Program-made: the position numbers and the translations under genes
In this document: one piece after another, positions 15,067-21,367 of the stretch
Layout: each line of letters begins with the position of its first letter
Position numbering within the stretch: the first letter of the stretch is position 1
The notes under the pieces: model-generated
Database searches by the model: none
What the model was told of the DNA's origin: nothing
The model's input: only the letters and a program-made list of their open reading frames with translations
Source of the DNA: a virus
Virus record (IMG/VR): IMGVR_UViG_3300037485_000166
Location: 1-23,972 of that record
DNA length: 23,972 bases
Reading direction: 5' to 3' (one strand)

Positions 15067-15462
15067 ATGCTCAACAACCGAATTGCAATGTGGATAATCC
15101 CGATGGCTGCGACTCTTGCGGCTCTTAACGGGTGCGCTACTGTGAAACCAGTCCTTCAGAGTGTAATTGTAAGGGACACGGTGATTGTCACCAAGACAAA
15201 GTACCTAACCGACACGCTCGAACTATACAAGGACACGACAATCTACCAAGACAAGGTTCGGCTGCAACTCCAATACATAGACCGAAAGGTACTCGTTGAG
15301 GCAACTTGCTTGCCCGACACCATCCGAGTCACCCAGACCAAGATTCTCACGAAGGAGAGGAAGCAGAGGGGTTGGACTCTCGAAGGTGGGCTAACGATGC
15401 TTGCCCTTGTTTTGGTCGCTGCGTACTTCGTAAAGAAGTGGATAGATAAACTATTGGAGTAA
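15067..15462 (+). CDS. Unimolecular-spanin-like lipoprotein
   Basis: The 131-residue protein has a lipoprotein signal ending in LNGC, with the lipidated Cys at 23. Residues 30-100 form a beta-rich, Thr/Val/Ile-rich region (RDTVIVTKTKYLTDTLELY). A C-terminal membrane helix follows at about 108-121 (LTMLALVLVAAYFV), then a basic tail (KKWIDKLL). A chain anchored by lipid at one end and by an inner-membrane helix at the other is the hallmark of u-spanins, which fuse the two membranes at the last step of lysis. It lies next to the amidase. A plain lipoprotein is possible, but the C-terminal helix argues against it. Confidence 0.7.
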   Translation: MLNNRIAMWIIPMAATLAALNGCATVKPVLQSVIVRDTVIVTKTKYLTDTLELYKDTTIYQDKVRLQLQYIDRKVLVEATCLPDTIRVTQTKILTKERKQRGWTLEGGLTMLALVLVAAYFVKKWIDKLLE

Positions 15463-15516
15463 TTATACCCCTTTAAGGCACTTTTAAGCGCATTAGGGAG
15501 GTTTTATACGCTAAAG

Positions 15517-15532
15517 GGTATAGTTCTATACC
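15517..15532. repeat. Perfect inverted repeat GGTATAG-TT-CTATACC
   Basis: Two seven-base arms are separated by TT. An AAGG/CCTT extension with one bulged G lengthens the pairing. A further near-complementary TATACCCCTTTA stands at 15464-15475 and can also pair with TAAAGGGTATA at 15512-15522, so two alternative hairpins are possible. There is no T-run, so a simple terminator is unlikely. A protein-binding site fits better. Confidence 0.6.
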
Positions 15533-15546
15533 TTGAGGTATTTGGA

Positions 15547-15560
15547 TGCGTTAGAACGCA
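15547..15560. repeat. Perfect inverted repeat TGCGTT-AG-AACGCA
   Basis: Six-base arms flank a two-base centre. It lies 14 bases after the GGTATAG palindrome and just before the pyrimidine tract. The short centre favours a DNA operator over an RNA hairpin. Confidence 0.5.
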
Positions 15561-15609
15561 ACTTCCTTTCTTTCTCTTTGTTTAGTTTCTCTTTCTTTAA
15601 GTTGTTTGG

Positions 15610-15689
15610 TTAAGTTAAAGGTTGATTAACTCTTGACTGAAGTCAAGTTAATAGTTGATTAAGTTAAGTAAGTTAGTAAGTCAACTATT
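15610..15689. repeat. Iteron-like cluster of direct and inverted repeats
   Basis: TTAAGTTAA occurs at 15610-15618 and 15659-15667. GTTGATTAA occurs at 15621-15629 and 15654-15662, 33 bases apart (about three helical turns). Between them CTTGACT (15632-15638) and AGTCAAG (15641-15647) form an inverted repeat. AATAGTTGA (15650-15658) pairs with TCAACTATT (15681-15689). The density and helical phasing resemble origin iterons or an array of operators. Confidence 0.55.
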
Positions 15690-15749
15690 CAACTTGTAAA
15701 AAAAAAGGAATAAAATTGACATACGCAAATTTTGTTAATAAATAATTCT

Positions 15750-15869
15750 ATGAACGACCACATCTACATTTATTGGGATGATGTACCTTTGACCAATGAC
15801 ACCAAAGTACTACATCGGCAAGACGTTGAAGATAGAGGCGAAGGATGTTGTGATGGACTTCCAACCTGA
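15750..15869 (+). CDS. Possible 39-residue leader protein
   Basis: This is the first ATG after the non-coding region. The first 20 residues (MNDHIYIYWDDVPLTNDTKV) look protein-like, but the rest overlaps the DUF3310 gene in another frame and is Gly/Cys-rich and less convincing. It overlaps the DUF3310 gene by 74 bases. It could be a real small gene, a leader peptide that couples translation to DUF3310, or chance. No family is recognised. Confidence 0.3.
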   Translation: MNDHIYIYWDDVPLTNDTKVLHRQDVEDRGEGCCDGLPT

Positions 15870-16065
15870 TAATTACAATCTGGGTACTGCTCTAACCTAC
15901 CTAATGAGAGCAGGCAAGAAACCACACAACCCTATCTGCGATGACATCCGCAAGGCTATCGCTCACCTACAATTTGAACTTGACCGACAGAATGAGCAGC
16001 CAACAATTAGCGCAACAAGCGAAGGAAGCCAAACAACAACAGGAAAATATGCAGTACTATACTAA
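15796..16065 (+). CDS. DUF3310-type small protein
   Basis: The first 65 residues match the DUF3310 pattern found in many phages: an opening IE, then NLGTALTYLMRAGKKP, and DDIRKAIAHLQFEL, in which Asp-Ile-x-Lys-Ala and the conserved Tyr-Leu-x-Arg are visible. The tail after residue 68 is polar Thr/Ser/Gln and looks unstructured. Members lie in phage nucleotide- and DNA-metabolism regions, but their reaction is not established. An in-frame stop shortly upstream fixes the start at 15796. Its last 17 bases overlap the next gene from its preferred start. Confidence 0.7.
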   Translation: MTPKYYIGKTLKIEAKDVVMDFQPDNYNLGTALTYLMRAGKKPHNPICDDIRKAIAHLQFELDRQNEQPTISATSEGSQTTTGKYAVLY

Positions 16066-16249
16066 CCCTGCCAAACGCAGGAAGATAGACTTTATCCTTG
16101 AGGAGTGCGCTACGCTGATGGCTAACTGCGAATCCGACTACAACTCACGCCAACAGGCGAAATACAAAGAACAAGAACTACTCGGTGATATTGCCAAGAT
16201 AGACCTGCACTTCGCCATCCAATGCGGCTATCTGATTCCCGACAACTGA
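16049..16249 (+). CDS. 66-residue hypothetical replication-region protein
   Basis: ATG 16049 is preferred because AGGAAA precedes it and the overlap with the DUF3310 gene is only 17 bases. ATG 15992 in the same frame would add 19 Gln/Lys-rich residues. The protein is helical and contains RRKIDFILEECATLMANCES, then YKEQELLGDIAKIDLHFAIQ and ends in GYLIPDN. I recall similar proteins in Flavobacterium phages before the RusA gene. There is no catalytic motif. It overlaps the RusA-like gene by 28 bases, so coupled expression is likely. Confidence 0.65.
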   Translation: MQYYTNPAKRRKIDFILEECATLMANCESDYNSRQQAKYKEQELLGDIAKIDLHFAIQCGYLIPDN

Positions 16250-16602
16250 CCTACAAGGTCGTAGTAGGCAAGGTTCCAAGCCTCAACGCCTTCTACGCAT
16301 CCAAGCATTGGACAGTCCGAGCAAAGGCAAAGGAGTTGGCATCCAAAGAAGTGATGTCGCAGCTTGAGAAGTACGACCTGCAAGAGATAAAGGATGTCCA
16401 CATCCATTGCAAGGTCAACTACCGCTACGATATTGACAATGCAATAATGGCGGTGAAGTTTGCTCTGGATGCTTTTAAGACTTGGGGTGGAGTAAAGGAT
16501 GACTCACGCACCTATGTTAAGTCGCTGAAGATGGTTCACGACCAAACAATTCCTAAAGACACGGCAGAAATAACCTTTACGGGTTTGGTGGTAACAGAAT
16601 AA
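16222..16602 (+). CDS. rusA: RusA-like Holliday-junction resolvase
   Basis: The 126-residue protein fits the RusA family in length and order. Near the start it has VPSLNAFYASKHW. The core is YDIDNAIMAVKFALDAF, with Asp70, Asp72 and Asn73 as the typical D-x-DN site and Asp83 behind it. GGVKDDSRTYVKSLKMV follows, with Asp93 and Asp94. These acidic residues should bind Mg2+ and cut branched DNA made during replication or recombination. The gene overlaps the upstream helical protein by 28 bases. Its last bases include the -33 box of the next promoter. Confidence 0.8.
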   Translation: MRLSDSRQLTYKVVVGKVPSLNAFYASKHWTVRAKAKELASKEVMSQLEKYDLQEIKDVHIHCKVNYRYDIDNAIMAVKFALDAFKTWGGVKDDSRTYVKSLKMVHDQTIPKDTAEITFTGLVVTE

Positions 16603-16614
16603 TTTGTATATTTG
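16584..16614 (+). promoter_or_regulatory. Bacteroidota-type promoter P1
   Basis: TTTG at 16584-16587 and TATATTTG at 16607-16614 match the -33 TTTG / -7 TAnnTTTG consensus with 19 bases between them. It starts inside the 3' end of the RusA gene and reads toward the coiled-coil and SSB-like genes. Confidence 0.65.
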
Positions 16615-16620
16615 CATAAC

Positions 16621-17298: not shown

Positions 17299-17316
17299 AA
17301 CCAATCAGAATAAATG
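17299..17316 (+). promoter_or_regulatory. ACCAATC leader element 3
   Basis: AACCAATCAGAATAAATG, with ACCAATC ending seven bases before ATG 17314. Only three bases separate it from the TATATTTG box, so it would lie at or near the transcript's 5' end. Confidence 0.55.
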
Positions 17317-18246
17317 ATACACCCAGACTTACTACCTAACGAATCTTCGTTACCATACCTCCAGAGAGCCTTAAAGGGCAAGTACTACGACACAGGCAAG
17401 CTTGGTGTCTATGAGATAGACCAATACCTGCGCCTTAAAGACGGTGAGTTTGTGGTAGTGGTAGGCCACGCCAACGTGGGCAAGACCCACACGCTGCTTT
17501 ACCTAATGCTTTTGCAGTCGTATAACTTCGGCAAGAAGTGGCTCATCTACTCTGCCGAGAACGAAGTGCCAAGCCTTAAAAGAAAGCTGATTGAGTTCTT
17601 GGTCTGCAAACCGATTCAAGGGATTGATGAAGGTATGATGTACCGCAAGTTGGACTTCATTAACGAGTACTTCCAATTCATAGACGGCAACAGGCTATTC
17701 ACCGCATTCGAACTTCTTGAGGTAATGAACTCCGTTAAGAACGAATGGAACTACACAGGAGCCTTGATAGACCCATACAACTCCCTATCAACAGACCAAA
17801 AGAAATTAGGCAAGACGGGGATGCACGAGTATCACTACGAGGTAGCCTCTGCGCTTCGGGTATTTGCCCACCAGAACAACGTCACTACCATAGTCAACGC
17901 ACACCCCGTAACGGAGGCAATGCGCAAGGTGTTCTTTAAGGGACACCAATACGAAGGGATGCCAATGCCACCAAATGCGGCAGATGTTGAAGGTGGCGGC
18001 AAGTGGAGTTCCCGCAGCGACTGTTTTGTTGTGATACATCGTTTTGCGGCTCACGAAACAGATTGGATATACACGCACATTCACGTTCGCAAGGTCAAGG
18101 AGATGGAGTCGGGAGGGCGCATCACGCCCCTTGAAACTCCCTTAATCTTGCAGAGCGTATTAGGTAATGTTGGTTTTGTTATCAACGGGCGTAACTTGCT
18201 GCCAATTAAAACTGATGAAACACCACAGAGCGATGTACCCTTCTGA
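17314..18246 (+). CDS. RecA-fold replicative helicase-like ATPase, short form
   Basis: The 310-residue protein has Walker A at residues 51-58 (GHANVGKT) after FVVVV. Walker B is at about 149-153 (GALID), and a NAH motif follows at 195-197 (TTIVNAHP). A Lys/Arg pair in VRKVKEMESGG could be the finger or sensor. This matches the SF4/DnaB-like or RecA-like core, but the protein is shorter than DnaB (about 450 residues) and has no N-terminal DnaB domain. It should unwind DNA at the phage fork. The last residues, SDVPF, resemble an SSB tip. It begins a transcript after terminator, promoter and leader. A recombination ATPase is the alternative. Confidence 0.7.
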   Translation: MIHPDLLPNESSLPYLQRALKGKYYDTGKLGVYEIDQYLRLKDGEFVVVVGHANVGKTHTLLYLMLLQSYNFGKKWLIYSAENEVPSLKRKLIEFLVCKPIQGIDEGMMYRKLDFINEYFQFIDGNRLFTAFELLEVMNSVKNEWNYTGALIDPYNSLSTDQKKLGKTGMHEYHYEVASALRVFAHQNNVTTIVNAHPVTEAMRKVFFKGHQYEGMPMPPNAADVEGGGKWSSRSDCFVVIHRFAAHETDWIYTHIHVRKVKEMESGGRITPLETPLILQSVLGNVGFVINGRNLLPIKTDETPQSDVPF

Positions 18247-18544: not shown

Positions 18545-18771
18545 AGCAAATCCTATCACCCTTCCAGAAGTACGAATGCTTTGAAGTAGATGGCGTGGAC
18601 TACCTTGTGGTTGACTACACCATCGTACAAGACAAGGATGACAATTTAGTGGAATGGGCAAGTGAGATGAAGTTCAAAAGACTTAAAGACCACAAGCACT
18701 TCACTATGCCAATCGCCAAAATAATAACCAATCATAAAGAGGGCAGGGCTAAACTCTGCAAATGCAAATGA
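18541..18771 (+). CDS. 76-residue hypothetical protein
   Basis: The gene starts on an ATGA overlap and ends in another, so it belongs to the same translation chain as its neighbours. The protein is beta-rich with FQKYECFEVDGVDYLVVDYT and a basic C-terminus ending KLCKCK. The paired Cys at the end could bind metal, but there is no full motif. Family and function are not recognised. Confidence 0.65.
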   Translation: MKQILSPFQKYECFEVDGVDYLVVDYTIVQDKDDNLVEWASEMKFKRLKDHKHFTMPIAKIITNHKEGRAKLCKCK

Positions 18772-19181
18772 GACCATTTGAACTACGTCAACTAAAAGTA
18801 AGCAAAGAGCAATACTTCGCCCGTCTGGGCTTTTCTGATAACGGAAGCAGAGCGCACAAAGAAAGCACCGCAAGAGCAGCATTCGTTTCAGCATTTAGAA
18901 ACCACGCCACCCTCCACGAACTGGGTGAAGCCATAGACAAAGACCATTCAAGCGTTGCGTATGCCGTAAGGATGCACAAGGATAGGCTTATGTATGGTGA
19001 TTATCAGCACTACTACAAGGTGGCGTGTTGTGTTCTTGAGGAGAACCCGATGGCCTGCATTGATAAGCCCGACTTTCAATCTTTGGAACTGGAACTAAAT
19101 AAACTAAACGAAGTCGTTGCGGAGTTATCTAAATACAAAGAATTATATTTAACTCTAAAGAAGACATTTGATGAATTTTGA
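18768..19181 (+). CDS. Stand-alone DnaA domain-IV-like DNA-binding protein
   Basis: The ATG at 18768 is chosen for its ATGA overlap. ATG 18762 lies two codons upstream in frame. In the 137-residue protein, residues 36-70 (ARAAFVSAFRN, then LHELGEAIDKDHSSVAYAVR) resemble the DnaA C-terminal helix-turn-helix with its DH(S/T)(S/T)V signature. That domain recognises DnaA boxes. No AAA+ domain is present. A helical coiled-coil tail (LELELNKLNEVVAELSKYKE) may dimerise it. It could bind the phage origin or compete with host DnaA. It overlaps the next gene by 11 bases. Confidence 0.7.
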   Translation: MRPFELRQLKVSKEQYFARLGFSDNGSRAHKESTARAAFVSAFRNHATLHELGEAIDKDHSSVAYAVRMHKDRLMYGDYQHYYKVACCVLEENPMACIDKPDFQSLELELNKLNEVVAELSKYKELYLTLKKTFDEF

Positions 19182-19329
19182 AGTAAACATTTGGCCTTTG
19201 ACAGGTTTACTGCTTGGCGTTAACTACGCTTCAACAACAGACCAAGATGGTGAGGACTTACAACATGAGCTTCAGTTTGCTTTGTTTGTGATAATTTTTG
19301 AAATTAGTTGGAACTCCTCGCAATATTAG
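19171..19329 (+). CDS. 52-residue small membrane-like protein
   Basis: The frame starts 11 bases before the DnaA-like gene ends and overlaps the sigma-like gene by 22 bases. It fills a gap that would otherwise be empty. The product contains VNIWPLTGLLLGVNY, an acidic middle (TTDQDGEDLQHE) and LQFALFVIIFEISW, so two short hydrophobic segments could insert in or lie on a membrane. I recall similar small proteins in Flavobacterium phages. No function is known. Confidence 0.6.
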   Translation: MNFEVNIWPLTGLLLGVNYASTTDQDGEDLQHELQFALFVIIFEISWNSSQY

Positions 19330-19844
19330 CAAAGCGACAGACGGACTGGATTCGGATGTGCAAGAGCTTCGGGGCGAGTGATGACCTTGCCCAAGAGCTT
19401 GTGCAGGAAATGTACGTTAGGTTGTACAAATACGTTGATGATGCGGAGAAAATAATGTACAACGAGACGGAGGTCAATACCTTCTTTGTGTACGTTACGC
19501 TGCGCAATATGTACGCCACCTTAATGCGCACCCGTGCAAGGTTTGAGTTCGTAGACGTTGACATCCTTGAGGACTTTATCTACGAGGAGGCCAACGAAGA
19601 TGCGGAGATACAACTCATACAACTTTATGACAGGGTATGGTCAACCCAAACTGACTGGCATTGGTATGACAAAAAGATATTTGCGCTATACCACAACACC
19701 GATATGTCTATTCGCACGTTAGCGGATGAGACCAAAATTTCAGCACGTTCAATTTTCAACACACTAAAAAATGCAAGAGAGCGAATCCAAGAAGACTGTC
19801 AAGACACCTACGAAGCGTACAAAGAAGCCAAGCGGCTTGGGTGA
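19308..19844 (+). CDS. Small sigma-like transcription factor
   Basis: The start is TTG 19308. There is no earlier ATG that extends the family-like part. In 178 residues, the front part (GASDDLAQELVQEMYVRLYK) resembles sigma region 2.1. TFFVYVTLRNMYATLMRTRA fits the region 2.3-2.4 helix that contacts the -10 box. Residues about 133-160 (SIRTLADETKISARSIFNTL) form a region-4-like helix-turn-helix. It lacks an anti-sigma or extra domain. It could direct host RNA polymerase to phage middle or late promoters. It overlaps the next gene by 74 bases. A non-sigma HTH regulator is possible. Confidence 0.65.
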   Translation: MELLAILAKRQTDWIRMCKSFGASDDLAQELVQEMYVRLYKYVDDAEKIMYNETEVNTFFVYVTLRNMYATLMRTRARFEFVDVDILEDFIYEEANEDAEIQLIQLYDRVWSTQTDWHWYDKKIFALYHNTDMSIRTLADETKISARSIFNTLKNARERIQEDCQDTYEAYKEAKRLG

Positions 19845-21171: not shown

Positions 21172-21175
21172 ATAT

Positions 21176-21202
21176 GAGGGGGGCATTAGCCCTCTTTTTT
21201 TT
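21176..21202 (+). terminator. Terminator after the nuclease pair
   Basis: GAGGG...GGC (21176-21184), loop ATTA, GCCCTC (21189-21194), then eight T (21195-21202). Two or three G can slip or bulge in the stem. Confidence 0.8.
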
Positions 21203-21222
21203 ATTTATTTTTTCTTTGAGTG

Positions 21223-21251
21223 TTGGTAATTCAAAAAGTTTTGTATATTTG
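21223..21251 (+). promoter_or_regulatory. Bacteroidota-type promoter P3
   Basis: TTG at 21223-21225 and TATATTTG at 21244-21251, separated by 18 bases, after the terminator. It starts the transcript toward the small membrane peptide and the exonuclease. Confidence 0.6.
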
Positions 21252-21262
21252 ACAAACATTTA

Positions 21263-21277
21263 ATACCAATCAGAATG
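21263..21277 (+). promoter_or_regulatory. ACCAATC leader element 4
   Basis: ATACCAATCAGAATG, with three bases between ACCAATC and ATG 21275. The run ACCAATCAGAAT is identical to the helicase leader. Confidence 0.55.
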
Positions 21278-21367
21278 AAACTACTACTTAAAAACACGGC
21301 CTACTTCTGCGCTCTTGCGCTGACGTTTTGGGCATACCTATGGACTCTTGAACTTCTTGGGATATGA
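21275..21367 (+). CDS. 30-residue membrane peptide
   Basis: A promoter, leader and start codon stand in order, and the stop overlaps the next gene by ATGA, so this very short frame is well supported. MKLLLKNTAYF is followed by a hydrophobic helix (CALALTFWAYLWTLELLGI). It should insert into the inner membrane. Functions of such phage micro-proteins include superinfection exclusion or inhibition of a host membrane enzyme, but nothing specific is visible. Confidence 0.6.
   Translation: MKLLLKNTAYFCALALTFWAYLWTLELLGI

Follow-up and report, generated by a model that had tools for sequence, protein, structure and literature searches.

The DNA analysed here, hereafter the window, is a virus record of 23,972 nt in which the longer ORFs retained by script lie nearly all on one strand. 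Its longest non-coding stretch (15463-15749, + strand) extends from the stop of an upstream ORF at 15462 to an ATG at 15750. The initial annotation had placed it at the same coordinates and had called it the only long non-coding stretch; no other is longer, yet a second non-coding stretch exists at 21172-21363. As that annotation also stated, the gap forms the border of late and replication genes, with lysis genes on one side and a DUF3310-RusA-helicase module on the other. The gene ending at 15462, for which no family match was obtained, is putatively Rz-like or membrane-type, a label of our own. The first gene past the gap is a small ORF of 39 aa (15750-15869, + strand), conserved in relatives, which is read in a different frame from the DUF3310 ORF and runs into its start. 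The opening peptide of the small ORF was found in 62 of 63 sequences, the one exception reflecting an anchor that the script failed to match, and the changes seen in relatives within its first 15 codons are mostly silent. It is followed by a DUF3310-like gene (15796-16065, + strand; phrog_236, E 5.5e-10; Pfam DUF3310 16.5 bits, under the cut-off) and by a primase/helicase-type replicative helicase (17314-18246, + strand), a call supported by a match to phrog_18375 (E 3.5e-37). Further downstream, a DnaA-domain-IV-like DNA-binding protein with a C-terminal helix is encoded at 18762-19181 (+ strand), and a possible sigma-like or HTH protein at 19308-19844 (+ strand). For the latter, the initial sigma-like call agrees with a phrog_1190 match (E 8.8e-4), but this match is weak and that to Pfam UPF0122 (21.9 bits) is below the cut-off.

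The portal protein of the window shares 38% identity with its counterpart in Nonlabens phage P12024S, in which the gene order differs, and the helicase matches primase/helicases of Maribacter and Cellulophaga phages at ~28-32%; these likenesses point to a Bacteroidota host as likely. BLASTN of 15067-16249 against named phages gave no match, the window had no hits to Rfam families or in a tRNA search, and no publication on the gap was found in a literature search limited to one library and chosen terms. To our knowledge, replication and early control of such aquatic Bacteroidota-type phages are largely unmapped. A search with the helicase over genome contigs yielded one relative (L368), in a metagenome-assembled record labelled as an archaeon, a label that is probably a binning error, and thus yielded no host. 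Seven relatives of 28-32 kb were retrieved for whole-record comparison. In four of them direct repeats of 73-137 nt occur at or near the record ends at differing map positions, and the compared maps overlap as a ring; the phage genome is therefore most likely circular or circularly permuted, with a length of about 29.4-30.3 kb. End repeats that fit circular or permuted DNA would also suit a packaging (pac) or recombination site at the gap. We regard such a site as highly improbable, given that the record ends fall away from the gap and that its identified neighbours are an amidase, the membrane-type ORF, DUF3310 and RusA, with no packaging genes.

Read from the lysis side, the gap contains a hairpin or palindrome GGTATAGTTCTATACC (15517-15532), which the initial annotation had not named, and a second one, TGCGTTAGAACGCA (15547-15560), which is followed by a T-rich tract and is weakly terminator-like. 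A pyrimidine tract, CTTCCTTTCTTTCTCTTT, occupies 15562-15579 (+ strand). Eight AGTTRAY-type sites in both orientations are clustered at 15613-15694, with starts at 15613+, 15626-, 15646+, 15653+, 15662+, 15671+, 15681- and 15689-. The same part of the gap holds two copies of the 9-base repeat GTTGATTAA (15621-15629 and 15654-15662, both + strand), exactly 33 nt apart and embedded in a 21-nt repeat of 86% identity, as well as the palindrome CTTGACTGAAGTCAAG (15632-15647). An A-tract (15698-15706, + strand) and a promoter-like element, TTGACA-N17-TAAATA (15716-15744, + strand), complete the layout. Thus, the two tight palindromes, TGCGTTAGAACGCA and CTTGACTGAAGTCAAG, the pyrimidine tract and the phased repeats of the initial annotation are all present as described; the longer inverted repeats that it listed exist as well, but they are imperfect (70-91% complementary).

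The conservation of these features was examined in close relatives, namely the best 80 of 300 loci found with the helicase as query. Both the Rz-like and the DUF3310-like flank were present in 62 of the 80, the 18 loci without one flank being left out, and these 62 together with the window comprise 54 distinct gap sequences of 267-374 nt. The gaps share a common layout of hairpin(s), pyrimidine tract, AGTTRAY cluster, A-tract, usually TTGACA-N17-TA, and the conserved small ORF. TGCGTTNNAACGCA is present in 49 of the 54, a pyrimidine run of at least 12 in 48 and a run of at least seven A in 32. In the first hairpin, the six pairs between 15517-15522 and 15527-15532 are kept in 49-54 gaps, partly via T-A to T-G and T-A to G-C changes, whereas the innermost pair is found in 19 and the outer pair 15516-15533 in 24. 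Each of the six pairs of the second hairpin is kept in 50-54 gaps, and the relatives L066 and L070 have other sequence in its place. A 19-mer ending in the second hairpin had matches in 81 stretches in a scan of viral contigs; among 70 distinct contexts in the loci retrieved, all have the Rz-like gene upstream and 66 have the DUF3310 gene downstream, the remaining four lying near contig ends. The initial annotation had tied its proposal to conservation of the repeats among close relatives. This was borne out for the phased repeats and the hairpin at 15547-15560, but not for the palindrome at 15632-15647, which is unique to the window among the 54 gaps. Since the relatives are close ones, gap conservation partly reflects shared ancestry. 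As a separate observation, the 5' part of the gap (15463-15535) occurs in very unlike alleles among close relatives (TTATACCC... versus GTTTATTTGGC...), a pattern that suggests recombination at the late/replication border.

The most distinctive component of the gap is the AGTTRAY array. Counting AGTTAA, AGTTGA, AGTTAG and their complements, a set picked after the sequences had been viewed, the window gap holds eight such 6-mers; 2000 dinucleotide shuffles of 15601-15700 gave 1.0 +/- 1.0 and never as many as eight. The best other 150-nt segment of the record holds two. The gaps of the seven relatives retrieved as whole records contain 9-12 of these 6-mers; the cluster is unique in all eight records, where the maximum elsewhere is 2-4 per 150 nt. 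Every one of the 54 gaps carries 8-14 sites, and among 6-mers found in at least 40 of the 54, AGTTAA is the most enriched (35-fold relative to the rest of the eight records). Overall 6-mer repetition in the gap is mildly raised (96 pairs versus 65 +/- 14, a level attained by 30 of 1000 shuffles), and 8-mer repetition does not exceed that of shuffles. This last result, the low-complexity TTAAG/TAAGT runs and the variable gap length would be compatible with an ordinary junction, in which a weak terminator is joined to a promoter and slippage in AT-rich DNA has incidentally given rise to the repeats. Retention of AGTTRAY-type sites in every relative argues against such a junction, and so does the spacing of the phased repeats. 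Under a strict pattern, 50 of the 54 gaps have copies of GTTGAYTAA at a distance of exactly 33 nt, and under a slightly relaxed one 51 do; the second copy is absent from the remaining three, so that the 33-nt spacing occurs in 51 of 51 cases where two copies exist.

Among these 51 sequences the copy-to-copy distance takes one length only, whereas the segment before the second hairpin takes five lengths, that from hairpin to array eight, that after the array nine and that before the ATG six. The 24-nt insert between the copies is nevertheless the most divergent stretch measured, with a mean pairwise difference of 19%, compared to 9.9% for the second hairpin and 6% for the start of the small ORF. 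Its AGTTRAY-type sites change orientation yet are not lost across 17 insert variants. An invariant spacing around a fast-changing insert renders the ordinary junction improbable in our judgement. Given that the spacing is fixed while the insert drifts and other segments vary in length, we read the 33 nt as a sign of selection on helical phase, approximately three turns, by a putative bound protein. Shared ancestry cuts the number of independent cases, yet it fails to explain the avoidance of indels in this segment alone. Structure at the RNA level was also considered: when the array was folded for 51 relatives, z ranged from -5.4 to -0.4 with a median of -2.5; three sequences were skipped, and one or more slices were badly truncated, to 22 nt. 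This signal was taken to follow from the presence of oppositely oriented sites, and RNA structure of the array was rejected as a candidate.

The array is followed by the promoter-like element, of which TTGACA-N17-TA is found in 45 of the 54 gaps and is absent or altered in nine. The form TTGACA-N17-TAATNT, with a spacer of 16-18, occurs in 37 gaps and TTGACA-N17-TAAATA in eight, the window included; in L027, L030 and L068 the whole -10 part is missing. A consensus promoter scan of the window gap found none. In flavobacteria, the promoter box TAnnTTTG and its variant motif TAnnTTGY have been reported (PMC9723704), and the TTGACA element of the gap differs from the TAnnTTTG box as given there. 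The exact Bacteroidota sigma-A promoter, TTG-N17-23-TANNTTTG, occurs in none of the 54 gaps; a TAnnTTGY box with TTG upstream is present in 28, not always at the TTGACA element. Outside the gap, each of the eight records carries the exact motif ~+1052 to +1068 from the gap marker, which corresponds to ~16584 in the window, and most carry it again at ~+5190 to +5690. Two conserved places thus have an exact host-type box that the gap lacks, so that the putative gap promoter is unlike these others and may require an activator or a different sigma factor. The conserved exact promoter-like sites of the window, at ~16584-16616 and 21222-21252 (TTTGTATATTTG), are each followed by a ACCAATCAG leader and an ATG within ~45 nt downstream. 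Regarding the gap as a whole, the 'control switch' proposed in the initial annotation gains support from the conserved layout, the genome-unique cluster, the invariant 33-nt spacing and the promoter-like element before the first gene of the replication module.

Termination in the gap would be weak. The candidate terminator has a five-pair stem with three GC pairs and a mixed C/T tail (-7.4 kcal/mol), and other terminator-like sites of the genome are stronger than the gap hairpins; the idea of a strong terminator at this position was therefore dismissed. Strong terminator-like hairpins with T runs are located at ~8475, 9092, 17281 and 21207, the same or similar in relatives, as detected with a home-made scan that is permissive, also reporting 38-43 minus-strand sites per record. 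Their presence suggests several separate transcription units in the genome.

Among the proteins that might act on the gap, the product of 18762-19181 is the first candidate. All 23 aligned members of this group match Pfam Bac_DnaA_C with E 0.01 or better (best 1e-10), although the window protein alone scores 18.5 bits against a Pfam cut-off of 31.5. A profile finds DnaA structures (best E 5e-9). An AlphaFold2 model with pLDDT 84, which replaced a discarded earlier model built on close relatives only (pLDDT 56), aligned to DnaA-DNA complexes with Z of ~10, namely 10.5 for 3PVP, the Mycobacterium tuberculosis DnaA DNA-binding domain on box DNA (rmsd 2.6 over 89 residues), and 10.1 for 1J1V, the Escherichia coli domain IV; the first non-DnaA row had Z 5.2. 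Foldseek alone on the model gave no hit under E 0.001, and the DnaA assignment rests on the family match, the profile and the structural alignment. Taken together, profile comparison and the predicted model confirmed the DnaA-domain-IV fold and thereby the initial call. In this protein the DnaA signature reads DHSSV, and the 139 aa consist of a domain-IV-like part and a C-terminal helix, the AAA+ ATPase domain of full DnaA being absent. BLAST of the protein against named phages gave no match. DnaA-type phage genes are already known, as the Polaribacter phages P12002L/S are reported to carry a 'replication initiation protein DnaA' (PMC4615864). A role for the DnaA-like protein as ligand of the gap is plausible, and the sigma-like protein would be the alternative candidate.

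A wider comparison was based on an alignment of the helicases of the window and of L192 (42% identical), which led to at least 80 further loci, the set comprising 81 with L192. In 40 of the 81 a DnaA-domain-IV-like match is present. The syntenic gap was placed by script in 21 of the 81, loci being left out where there was no DUF3310 hit or the hit was too near the end. Many of these distant gaps feature long AT-rich palindromes as well as a strong terminator where the late genes end, and eight of the 21 contain the exact TTG-N17-23-TANNTTTG promoter. In L261 (199-371), L263 (547-748) and L264 (1199-1523) the long AT-rich palindromes, for example around CCCTTTAGGGG, are cruciform-prone. DnaA boxes of the form TTWTNCACA number 12 in 6.1 kb of distant gaps versus 13 in the other 163 kb. 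They are spread over six clade groups, set by sequence likeness and not by tree; none of 600 letter-shuffled patterns matched six groups and six of 600 reached 12 counts.

These boxes and the frequent DnaA-domain-IV-like match speak for the gap as a replication origin, in which an iteron-like array would be bound by the DnaA-domain-IV-like protein or another initiator, the AT-rich flank would open and the helicase would be brought in, as at oriL/oriR of phage SPP1. The repeat cluster, which adjoins AT-rich DNA where the replication module begins, and the fixed 33-nt phasing are in line with this. However, DnaA boxes (TTATNCACA), strict or with one mismatch, are absent from the window-clade gaps in the eight records, except for one one-mismatch site in the window. 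DnaA boxes serve promoters too, and the DnaA-domain-IV-like protein stands alone without an AAA+ motor. Regarding GC skew, which the initial annotation had put forward as a check, there was no cumulative minimum at the gap and no origin signal: the cumulative minima of four relatives lie ~15-18 kb from it, and in four complete-looking relatives the skew at four-fold sites does not differ from one half to the other. The skew results speak against a bidirectional origin at the gap, and are silent on rolling-circle or recombination-driven replication. We therefore treat the origin as a possible but doubtful reading, and rank above it a protein-bound operator/promoter control region at the late/replication border, possibly also acting as an origin, which we consider reasonably probable.

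Under the control-region reading, late transcription would enter from the lysis genes and be weakened at the two small hairpins and the T-rich tract. A DNA-binding protein, with the phage DnaA-domain-IV-like protein as first candidate, would occupy the AGTTRAY array, anchored at the two GTTGAYTAA sites, which would lie on nearly the same helix face, separated by 33 nt or roughly three turns. Once bound, the protein may govern the TTGACA-N17-TA promoter ~20 nt downstream of the array, from which the small-ORF/DUF3310/RusA unit would start, and the same nucleoprotein complex may open the DNA for the phage helicase.

In SPP1, oriL/oriR and the origin-binding protein gp38 likewise combine short repeats beside an AT-rich region with a phage DNA-binding protein and a DnaB-type helicase (PMC6316719). 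However, in SPP1 oriL lies within gene 38 and has direct repeats, whereas in the window the sites are in both orientations within a non-coding gap that is a candidate origin. Bacterial DnaA domain IV (1J1V, 3PVP) has the same fold as the phage protein, and DnaA boxes likewise crowd the syntenic gap of the distant relatives; in contrast to bacterial DnaA, the phage protein has no AAA+ domain and carries the DHSSV signature, and the window-clade gap has AGTTRAY sites instead of TTATNCACA. The gaps of L192, L229, L261-L265 and L278 resemble that of the window in being positioned ahead of the DUF3310 module, AT-rich, palindromic and promoter-bearing. The window clade differs in having neither the strong GC-rich terminators with T runs seen in many distant gaps nor the exact host-type promoter of the eight mentioned above. 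One speculative scenario, to which we assign a low probability, is that of a minimal, motor-less DnaA-domain-IV initiator, in which the window clade would have moved from DnaA boxes to a phased AGTTRAY array, with initiator and origin co-diverging and the distant relatives keeping the box form. If the array is the binding site of a motor-less DnaA-domain-IV protein, the two would constitute a small, testable initiator-site pair, and the array would be a marker of the start of replication or early transcription in hundreds of uncultured phage contigs.
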